Assembly (NCBI GenBank): GCA_944989445.1 | Contig: CALYLW010000166.1 | Location: forward strand, 129,946 to 193,945 | Reading direction: 5' to 3' | DNA length: 64,000 nucleotides | DNA from: Ampullaceana balthica | Taxonomy: Eukaryota; Mollusca; Gastropoda; Lymnaeidae | Shown: positions 21,901 through 42,900 of the stretch, piece after piece | Layout: every line of letters begins with the position of its first letter | Position numbering within the stretch: position 1 is the stretch's first letter | Position numbers and translations under genes: made by a program | The notes under the pieces: generated by a model | What the model was told of the DNA's origin: nothing | Database searches by the model: none | Seen by the model: only the letters and a program-made list of their open reading frames with translations

Positions 21901-24900
21901 AGATATGTTTAAAATGTAAACGAAAGAAATGCTTTAAAAATAAAGGTATCGGGCAGCAGCAGTGCTCAGTTATTTCCCCAATTTTTTTGAGCCAATGCGG
22001 CTTTGAAATCTAACCAGATACTTCTATAGATAATTTTATTTATACGATTTCTTATTGTCTTTAAAGAGAAAAAACACCACCAAATATTGAAAAGTAGACT
22101 CAATAGAGCAATAATCACACGTTAAATAAGAAGCTAGACATGAATGCAGCTTGAGGCCACTGTGGGGACTTGCTTGTTTAGTGGTAGATGAGAGATGACT
22201 AGCGAGACGAGGCAACTCAAAGTCTGTTTCGATTTTTGTATTGTAGGAGAGCGCAAGTACACGTGCAAGTTCTGCGACCGGGGCTTTAAGCAGCTTTCCC
22301 ACTTACAAAAGCACACCCGTATCCACACTGGTATGTATGACTGCCCTCCATCCCCCCCACTCTCTCTCCCACCCTGTGTTGTTTCTCTTACTAACTGGTG
22401 GGTGACCTTCTTAAATCAGGACCTGGGCCCCCATGAACAAACCAGTGGCTTCACTATCCCCCCCCCCAATTAGCCAGCAAAATGAGTTGTGTGATAATTT
22501 AGTACATTTCAAAAGTTTTTTTATTTTATTTTTAATGTCGTCAACTGTCACTAGAGACGTGGGTTCGGATGACGATCAACTTATAACATTAAATTGCAAA
22601 TCGTGTAACTATCGTGACAATGCGCAAATATATCTATACATACATTTAGGCGGTGTTATGACGTTATTAGTTTGTGGGGGGGGGGAGAGGTCGCATTTAT
22701 TTTAGAAGCAGTGGAGGGGCGAGTATGGATGGGGGCGACCCCAAGAAGATGAGTTTCCATCGTGCCGCTTCGCGGCCCGTAAAGTTGCATTACAGGGCCC
22801 GCTAAAAAGAGGGGTGGTACTTGGTCTAAAGAGTCTTGGCTCGTCGACTTCGTCATTTTTCTTATGTGTTTGGTTTTAGTAGCAGCGCCACAATGAAACG
22901 CTTCGACGCCACGGGCAAAGAAGTGCCCCCTTGCACTGCTAACCATGATGCAACTAGCCACTAGCTTACTACAGGGCTGTCCGAACCAAGAAACTACTTT
23001 CTGGTGGGGATTTGTTTAAAATACATTACCCACCCCTGCCCCCATTTCTTGATTAGAAAATGACTGGTGTCGGCTTTTAAAATTTCGCCTGGAAGCCACT
23101 GGTTTTATGTGTAGGCTCTGTACAACATCTATGTAGCTTTCCTTGCAGCACTCCCAGTTTGGGGGGGGGGCTTTTAGTAAATCTATATGTTTCCAAACGT
23201 TTAAACTCAACTAATACTTATTGTCTACTTTTTGCCAGTATTTGTTTGTTTTTAGTTGTTTTTTGTTGTTGTTTTTTTTTACATTTTGCCTACACCCCTC
23301 TCACCCCACTTTTTTCTTCATGTTTTAGATTCTTGAGATGTAATGATTATTTATAACTCTGGTGCTCTGCTATCTTAGATATACCAGCTGTACATTGTAC
23401 ATATCTTAGTAGTTACTCCCCTTTGCATGTCAATGTCTATACAATACTTGTCATTATTATAATCTCCAGGTTGAACTCCTGCATGGGTGATGGTCTGCTG
23501 TTAAACCGTTTAACATTGTTTGTGGAACGTTTACATTTTACCCCTGGCGGATGTACACCATTTATACACTATACATGCCAAAAACATTCATTTTTTTGGT
23601 TTACATTTATTGAACACACATACCTAATTTATATGTTCACTAAAAAAAAACTTCCAAAAATATGTCTTGTTGTCAGTGATTAGACTCAAAACGAGCCTGC
23701 ATTCACCATATGTTTTATATAATACACAGGAATTCTATGATGGACTGATGCTGAATAGCTCACACAAAAATGTTTCATGTTTCTTGTACCCATGCTGTTG
23801 TAAACATATATATCTACAAATTAACCGTGTTCGGGTATTATTTCCATAATTTTGTTGGCCTTCCTTGACAAACACACCACGGGTGTCTTCTGCCATCCAT
23901 TGGTTTACAGTCAAGTCCTAAAAGATTCTCCTAACTGACCACAGGCGTCCACTACCTTCCATAGTCCAAGTCCCATAAGATCCTGTCTCAAAATAAATAT
24001 CATTTTTATGGAACCACTTCTGCACCTCTATTCCTACCATTATTATTTTTAATCTAACCGACCCTTGGCATCTTCCCTCGGTGCATACGAAATGTCCGTC
24101 GATGTGCCGTGCACCTTGGCCGATGTTTTCAATCCCGGGTCTGGGGTGAAACTGAATCCACCAATTACTGTAAACACCGCCGCCTGCCAAAGCACGTGAG
24201 TAGTCGCGCTTGAGGAGCTCTCACCCCCCACCCCACTCCCCACCCCCAGGCCATCGCCGCGTATATTCTTTGTGGAGAGGTCCGTGTCGAGTATCGGGAC
24301 CTCGCCTTACTGTCAAGTCGCTCAAGTAATCCCCTTCCATTTCCTTACCAAATTAGCTGTGTGTGGGCCGAAATACAGGAAAGTGTGTGTGTGGGGGGGG
24401 GGTGCTCGGGATTTGGGTAACCAGGAGCGGGGTGAGTTTGGGAACTTGGACTTGTCACGGTTCACTTAATTTCAGACATGCCCCAAGGAACAAGTCAGTC
24501 CCCTGAAACAGGTCTGACGTCACGACTATGGCCATACAGATCTGAGTGCAGCACCATGATAAACACACATAACTGTTATACCATTTGTTTTATTAGCTAT
24601 ACAGTCAAGAGTGAAGAGCTTCTGCATTCCATTCTCATCTACTACAGTTTACTACATGATGATTCGCCTGACATGAGATAAACAGCAGTCATGCGTGGGG
24701 GCCGCTTTCTTATAATTTGAAATTTACTGAGACCCGAATTCGATTTGCTTGAGTAGTGGGGGAAAGTGGGTCTGGACATTGAATAACATTAAAATGGGGC
24801 TAAAAAACCGCGTTGAGTATAATTATAATCCTCCATTTGCAGCCATTAATACTAACCCTATAGAATATGTCAATATTTCGGCAATTAGCACATAATATGA

Positions 24901-39900: not shown

Positions 39901-42900
39901 TTTCTTTCTTCTCTCTCTTGTCTTGTAGACGAGCGGAAATACGTATGCCAGTGCTGCGACCGGGCCTTCCGCCAACAGTCGCACCTTAACCAGCACTTCC
40001 GCATACACACAGGTGAGCGCCTCGTAGGATGTCCACTGTGGTTTCCCGTTGTTCTGTCCCTGTTAAATTTATTCTGATAGCATTCCAAAAAAAAACAATT
40101 GCATCTTTTTACCTTTTTCTCGGGACGCTTGAAAGTTTTATTTTAAAACCTCTGCAAGTAGTTAAATTGATTTAGTCCCTAAGTTGTAAAATTGTCTAGG
40201 CCCTAAATCGTCAATAATCATGAAAATATGTGAAATAGTTATTACCTCCCATGATAATCCAAAAATAATCATGTGCTGAATATTTTTCTTGTCAAAAATA
40301 AATCCAAATATAATCTTTGTCACATAATTCAATTATTCTTACATTTTAGATACAGTGGTCAAGCATATATCCCAAAATTAAACTTTTGAGTTAATCTTTG
40401 TATATTTGTTAATAAAGCTAAGACAGAAATATGCCATGAGTTTTTCCTTGTTTTTATGAGTTTTTCTTGTTTCCATTGAAAGTTTTTCTTATTTGGACCC
40501 AACTGGCTTTGGTAAAGTGCCACATCAAAATTAGCATTTTGAATTTCAAATAATTACCAGTTTGTTGTTGATTTCAAAATGTTCTGTTTAGAATTTCACC
40601 ATTTTACAGATCCCTCTTTTTAATGTTAAATATTTGAGATAATACACAACATAGAAAGTCCCTCTGGACTATTTCTTGGCCTATTTTTTAGCTCCCATGT
40701 GTCTGTGTTTTTTATCATCATCAAATACGCTTATAATAATATCATCTAAGAAAGTTGTTGCTATAAAACTGAAACCCAAATTTATTGTTAGTTGATGCTA
40801 GTCAATAAGAGTGATGATCATTGATGTATTCACAGGTCAGTACAAGACCCAGTCAGACTTTGATGGAATCAGTTGAAACCATGTCATCAGTTACAGCTTG
40901 ATCCTCCCTAAAGTTGTCAATGTAATAAACATGTAATTTTCCTAGCATTAGTTCAAGGATACATAAAAAGCTAACAAAATTTCTTGTTGCCACATGTCCA
41001 GGTGAGAAGCCGTACCGATGTAAGTTTGAGAACTGCGAGAGGGCGTTTGCCCAGCTGTCCAACCTCCAGCACCACATGAGGAACCATGACGACCAGGTCA
41101 AGAAGGAGGCCACGCGCATACACAAGTGTCAGATCTGCCACCGGTGCTACACCAACGAGAGCAGCCTCAAGTCCCACACGCTGAAGGTCAGTTGACGCTC
41201 ATCTGAGTTTGTGTTCACTGGCGGTCAGTTCTGACCACCCATTTCTTTGGTGTGTTGCTGTTGTACATTTCTTTCTTTGGGTTGTTGATGTAGTACATTT
41301 CAATAAGATGTTCCCTTTATTTCTCTCATGGATTTTACATTAATTAGGAATATCCCTTGTCCTCCAACTTGCTGGTGTTCACTACTTACATTAATGTATA
41401 CCTAACTACTTAAATTAATGTATACCTAACTACTTAAATTAATGTATACCTAACTACTTAAATTAATGTATACCTAACTACTTAAATTATTGTATACCGA
41501 ACTACTTAAATTAATGTATACCTAACTACTTAAATTAATGTATACCTAACTACTTAAATTAATGTATACCCAACTACTTAAATTAATGTATACCTAACTA
41601 CTTAAATTAATGTATACCCAACTACTTAAATTAATGTATACCTAACTACTTAAATTAATGTATACCCAACTACTTAAATTAATGTATACCTAACTACTTA
41701 AATTAATGTATACCCAACTACTTAAATTAATGTATACCTAACTACTTAAATTAATGTTTACCTAACTACTTAAATTAATGTATACCCAACTACTTAAATT
41801 AATGTATACCCAACTACTTAAATTAATGTATACCCAACTAATTAAATTAATGTATACCTAACTACTTAAATTAATGTATACCCAACTACTTAAATTAATG
41901 TATACCTAACTACTTAAATTAATGTATACCTAACTACTTAAATTAATGTTTACCTAACTACTTAAATTAATGTATACCCAACTACTTAAATTAATGTATA
42001 CCTAACTACTTAAATTAATGTATACCTAACTACTTAAATTAATGTATACCTAACTACTTAAATTAATGTATACCCAACTACTTAAATTAATGTATACCCA
42101 ACTACTTAAATTAATGTATACCTAACTACTTAAATTAATGTATACCCAACTACTTAAATTAATGTATACCCAACTACTTAAATTAATGTATACCTAACTA
42201 CTTAAATTAATGTATACCCAACTACTTAAATTAATGTATACCCAACTACTTAAATTAATGTATACCTAACTACTTAAATTAATGTATACCTAACTACTTA
42301 AATTAATGTATACCCAACTACTTAAATTAATGTATACCCAACTACTTAAATTAATGTATACCCAACTACTTAAATTAATGTATACCCAACTACTTAAATT
42401 AATGTATACCCTACTACTTAAATTAATGTATACCCAACTACTTAAATTAATGTATACCCAACTACTTAAATTAATGTATACCCAACTACTTAAATTAATT
42501 ACCTGTTTAAAATACTTTATCCACAGATGCACATTCATATCAAGCCCATAGACCAGCACCCATTACCAGCACCCAAGAAAAGGCGCAAGCGTAAAAACAA
42601 GGATCTTTATGGCGGTGCCCCTACCATGGTGCCCGTGTCCTCAGCTGACGGATCGTTTAGCAGCGTCATGCAGGGCATGAAGGCAGGTGGTTCCAGAACG
42701 AGGAGCCCAACGTCATCAGACGACGATGAAATCATATTCGTTGGGGAGCAGATGGGTCCCCCCAGGGTGGATAACTTTGGAGGGGTGCCAGGGGGTCAAG
42801 GACAGATGCTTCAAGGGCCTGGGGGTAGGGGTCATGACCTCAGTCACCAGCTTCAGTTCACCGGGATGGGAAATTTCTCCCGCGGCGCCGACCCACTGGC

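Follow-up and report, generated by a model that had tools for sequence, protein, structure and literature searches.

The window, by which we mean the whole 64-kb stretch of DNA that was analysed, holds on its plus strand a gene for a protein with C2H2 zinc fingers, in which ten neighbouring exons encode one finger apiece. On the minus strand, at about 56860-62640, lies a second gene, which encodes ankyrin repeats and two RING fingers. The best PDB match of its last RING finger is RING3 of MIB1 (E 1.3e-15) and, judged by these domains, it is a mind-bomb-like ubiquitin ligase gene.

A zinc-finger gene with ten single-finger exons

The exons of the zinc-finger gene are listed below in window coordinates.

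14408-15957, plus strand: 5' exon; fingers at 15807-15869 and 15891-15953; phase 1 at its exit; start placed at an acceptor-like AG
22247-22330, plus strand: cassette exon 1; one finger; preceded by the acceptor element
28696-28779, plus strand: cassette exon 2; one finger; preceded by the acceptor element
29635-29718, plus strand: cassette exon 3; one finger
31902-31985, plus strand: cassette exon 4; one finger; belongs to clade 4-8; +5 G missing from its donor
33944-34027, plus strand: cassette exon 5; one finger; belongs to clade 4-8; +5 G missing from its donor
35300-35383, plus strand: cassette exon 6; one finger; belongs to clade 4-8; +5 G missing from its donor; preceded by the acceptor element
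36231-36314, plus strand: cassette exon 7; one finger; belongs to clade 4-8; +5 G missing from its donor; preceded by the acceptor element
37155-37238, plus strand: cassette exon 8; one finger; belongs to clade 4-8; +5 G missing from its donor; preceded by the acceptor element
37674-37757, plus strand: cassette exon 9; one finger
39929-40012, plus strand: cassette exon 10; one finger; more divergent than the other nine
41002-41186, plus strand: penultimate exon; a CX4C-knuckle finger whose helix reads QLSNLQ (41019-41087), and the larger part of the last finger
42527-43885, plus strand: last coding exon; completes the last finger; stop at its end

Exons 1-10 are each exactly 84 bp long, with borders, read from the sequence, that consist of an AG upstream and a GT downstream. 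All ten are entered and left in phase 1, because the intron splits the first codon of the inter-finger linker after its first base; the closing G of each cassette exon is thus base 1 of a Gly or Asp codon that the next exon finishes. Each exon supplies 28 residues, made up of a linker and one finger of the form C-X2-C-X12-H-X3-H, and has no stop. The initial annotation had described ten 84-bp, AG/GT-bordered, phase 1-1 exons that each encode one finger plus linker, and the sequence confirmed this description in full.

When 14409-15957, the ten exons, 41002-41186 and 42527-43885 are joined they yield a single open reading frame with one stop, ending at 43885. Inclusion of all ten exons gives fourteen fingers: two from the 5' exon, ten from the cassettes and two at the C-terminus, the last of which is interrupted by the final intron. 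The protein fits the C2H2 definition (C-X2-4-C-X12-H-X3-5-H) and scores 170.7 bits with Pfam zf-C2H2, the cut-off being 25.2. It had also been proposed that any subset of the exons could be skipped in frame; we translated all 1024 subsets, and every one keeps the frame, with a premature stop in none.

A 42-bp minisatellite (13982-14407) abuts the 5' exon. Its unit contains the acceptor-like TGTTACTTCAG in 9 copies, and the final copy is the putative acceptor of that exon.

Age, constraint and relatives of the cassette exons

A DNA profile of the ten exons, trained on the same copies that it recovers, found each of them in the 64 kb at E 3.3e-18 or better. Beyond the ten, clear scores came only from fingers in the flanking exons (15876-15957, 5.4e-17; 41020-41085, 3.2e-5), and no further or decayed finger exon was found on either strand of the 64 kb, where the best other E values were 0.66 for DNA and 0.68 in six frames. 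A repeat search that was blind to the exons brought out ten copies, in register, as one family. The exons are adjacent, homologous and equal in size and phase, which supports the earlier suggestion that they arose by tandem duplication. A finger exon made symmetric by phase-1 introns in the inter-finger linker would have duplicated in tandem long ago.

Among the 45 exon pairs, pS was at least 0.49 in every case and too high for a distance in 35, while pN ranged from 0.02 to 0.27. The majority base is shared on average by 6.2 of the ten copies at third codon positions, by 8.5 at first positions and by 9.2 at second positions. These patterns indicate that the copies are old and that each has been retained as protein; at the level of sequence, the comparison shows the ten to be under strong purifying selection.

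Other accounts of the copies were considered and rejected: a chance pattern, by the profile E value of every copy; recent duplication, by silent distances that were not computable in 35 of 45 pairs; decay, by the lack of stops and the presence of both splice dinucleotides in all ten; and a minisatellite origin, since no tandem array scoring at least 100 overlaps any of the exons. Rfam, tRNA and NCBIfam scans gave no matches. The search for contaminating relatives among prokaryote and viral contigs returned 59 and 14 pattern matches, none of which was confirmed.

The introns between the copies run from 435 to 6365 bp and are mostly unalignable. The 20 nt directly upstream of the exons show high identity among the copies, at a level matched by none of 200 controls; elsewhere in the introns identity lies close to controls or chance, save in a few scattered bins. 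With all ten exons considered, 3 of 200 controls matched the bins at -160 to -140 and at -120 to -100 in each case. Before exons 1, 2, 3, 9 and 10, the bins at -180 to -160 and -120 to -100 were matched by none of 200 shifted controls, a figure to be read in the light of the many bins tested.

In the order and wording of its fingers, QLSHLQQH fingers followed by a QLSNLQ finger, the protein presumably most resembles the ZNF384 / rotund / LIN-29 group. This order is present in the gene model. We take the candidate relatives to be ZNF384 (CIZ/NMP4), ZNF362, rotund, squeeze, LIN-29 and perhaps dati; no listed member of the group appears among the best 60 of 234 PDB matches. In ZNF384, ZNF362, rotund, squeeze and LIN-29, too, similarly worded fingers are followed by an extended-knuckle QLSNLQ finger; the present gene differs from them in its total of fourteen fingers, in the placing of ten of these in exons of their own, and in the wording of its C-terminal fingers. 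Members of the ZNF384 group bind A-tracts, and NMP4 has 5-8 fingers through alternative splicing. If this background holds, variable finger number is already known in the ZNF384 group and the present gene is an extended form.

Predicted DNA contacts and the inclusion of the exons

Eleven fingers are of the same type, namely the ten cassette fingers and one in the 5' exon, and their predicted contacts are almost uniform. Helix position -1 is Q and +3 is H in all eleven; +2 is S in five and T in six, and +6 is Q in nine and K in two. In the recognition code, contacts of the kind Q, S or T, H, and Q or K suit purine triplets with A at both ends, and an array with such a preference suits A-rich DNA. 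The initial annotation had supposed that splicing could set the identity of the fingers as well as their number. The part concerning identity was not borne out: with predicted contacts near-uniform in all eleven fingers, skipping would alter finger number and hardly touch identity. Each finger would prefer a purine triplet with A ends, so that the string would read A-rich DNA, and the finger count would set the length of the tract and the strength of the grip without changing the sequence that is read.

Exons 4-8 form one clade (IQ-TREE ultrafast bootstrap 90; FastTree 0.997); the trees gave no resolution of the branching order among the remaining cassette exons. At +5 the donors of these five exons have T, A, C, A and C in place of G, whereas the other seven donors, those of the 5' exon, exons 1, 2, 3, 9 and 10 and the penultimate exon, all possess the G. 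The contrast has a Fisher P of 0.0013, but the five weak donors share descent and for that reason are not independent observations. Their bases at +4 to +6 have diverged from one another. By total matrix score, exon 6 (8.0) and exon 1 (7.9) have donors of about equal strength, and all five donors of the clade outscore about 92-95% of intronic GTs. Of three donors in the neighbouring gene that were read by eye, only one has a +5 G, so this base may be dispensable in this species.

The symmetric phase of the exons was rejected as evidence of alternative splicing. Duplicating a non-symmetric exon in tandem disrupts the frame; surviving copies are therefore symmetric in either case, constitutive or alternative. 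It is a serious, if lesser, possibility that all ten exons are constitutive and make up one fourteen-finger array, the exon layout merely recording its growth. All ten are intact, look spliceable and are strongly constrained, and their symmetric phase is expected under constitutive inclusion too; against this reading stand the five donors in one clade that lack the +5 G and the variable finger number of ZNF384/NMP4. On balance we lean towards variable inclusion, in which an animal C2H2 transcription-factor gene with an old tandem exon duplication would use splicing to vary the number of its fingers and not their identity. Default inclusion may apply to exons 1-3, 9 and 10 and variable inclusion to exons 4-8, which would allow arrays of different length; from the donor sequences, exons 4-8 are predicted to be the likeliest regulated subset.

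If exons are skipped, one gene would give rise to a series of factors for the same kind of site that differ in length and affinity, and would provide a natural test of the part played in binding by finger number, separate from finger identity. If all ten are constitutive, the locus is a clear record of the exon-by-exon growth of a polydactyl array under constraint. The exon anatomy is real, the cassette idea is possible on the sequence evidence, and control of array length is a prediction that can be tested.

It had been taken as established that most polydactyl genes keep their tandem fingers in one exon. This holds for many such genes, but single-finger exons and a finger number set by splicing have precedents, in TFIIIA and ZNF384/NMP4. 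TFIIIA likewise has roughly one finger per exon, but its fingers are unlike each other and its exon sizes vary. Finger-coding exons are also chosen by splicing in lola, fruitless and similar BTB-ZF genes; in those genes they are alternative 3' exons of differing specificity, while the exons described here are internal, contain single fingers and have equal predicted contacts. Clusters of the Dscam type resemble the present one in that their exons, duplicated in tandem, have size and phase in common, and in the possible presence here of an antisense site opposite several acceptors. They differ from it in that the acceptor element described below is found at only five of the ten acceptors and the copies are near-equivalent in predicted function. 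Any subset of exons is in frame in the present gene, and exclusivity is therefore not needed, unlike in Dscam-type clusters.

The acceptor element, its antisense copies and the minisatellites

A short element precedes some of the cassette exons and has antisense copies in the introns of the array. Allowing at most two mismatches, TCGATTTTTGTMTT occurs 11 times in the window, compared with a mean of 1.63 and a maximum of 6 in 100 shuffles. Five copies lie directly before exons 1, 2, 6, 7 and 8. Of the remaining six, four are antisense copies in array introns (21842, 27739, 29952 and 36398) and two are sense copies elsewhere in the window. The exon-6 element and two antisense copies are listed here.

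35274-35287, plus strand: acceptor element of exon 6, just upstream of it, CTCGATTTTTGTCT; related copies at 22228, 28677, 36205 and 37130 (exons 1, 2, 7 and 8)
36399-36412, minus strand: antisense copy, complementary to the exon-6 element at all 14 nt; 85 nt past exon 7; candidate docking site
27739-27752, minus strand: weaker antisense copy, located in the exon 1-exon 2 intron, with 2 mismatches

The arrangement could be read as competing RNA pairing, in which antisense sites paired with several acceptor elements would steer inclusion in the manner of a docking site and its selectors. We regard this as unlikely. In its favour are the perfect 14-nt complementarity between 36399-36412 and the element before exon 6, where a motif-limited pairing run of 14 nt arose in only 3 of 1000 shuffles, and the distribution of the antisense copies at up to two mismatches, with four in array introns and none in the rest of the window; three or more such copies occurred in none of 400 shuffles. 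The duplex energies point the same way: the site downstream of exon 7 gives -22.6 when paired with the exon-6 element and -18.6 with that of exon 8, the 27739 site gives -19.5 for exon 2 and -16.4 for exon 1, and all four fall in the best 0.4% of intron windows, which are not composition-matched. Against the pairing interpretation, the motif was selected after it had been seen, and 1.7% of permuted motifs perform equally well. Unrestricted pairing tests fail, with 60 of 200 and 49 of 200 shuffles equally good, the 36397 window (248) falling below the shuffle mean of 258, and 69 of 1000 shuffles equally good in a further test of this kind. Moreover, at two mismatches the element is absent before exons 3, 4, 5, 9 and 10, half of the acceptors, and at three mismatches the raw counts, which are without a shuffle control, are 6 antisense copies in array introns and 5 in the rest, with 8 and 8 for sense copies.

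A conserved branch point with its pyrimidine tract is likelier than RNA pairing as an explanation of the element. The element is probably a feature of this sort handed down from the ancestral exon, the antisense copies being due to chance: it is U-rich and stands about 5-30 nt before the AG, and the general pairing tests are negative. The elements before exons 1 and 8 do not sit easily with the branch-point explanation, for they are identical at 14 of 14 positions despite differences at 28 of 84 bases between the exons themselves and an unalignable intron around them. A broader proposal, that the gene is a splice-set molecular ruler for A-rich DNA built of interchangeable-finger cassettes whose inclusion is steered by pairing between antisense sites and acceptors, strikes us as very improbable.

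Two further minisatellites on the minus strand, at 61460-62463 and 58767-59098 in the ankyrin/RING gene, have units that contain an exon end and its donor (AATATACAGGT, 20 copies, and CACTCACCCATGCT, 4 copies); with the array at 13982-14407 already described, three minisatellites in the window begin at the edge of an exon and have a splice site copied in their units. Long minisatellites lie at 9791-13845 (40-bp unit), 41381-42499 (24 bp), 48808-51043 (35 bp) and 62631-63777 (40 bp), and in 48808-51043 and 62631-63777 the repeats account for reading frames that are several hundred codons long.
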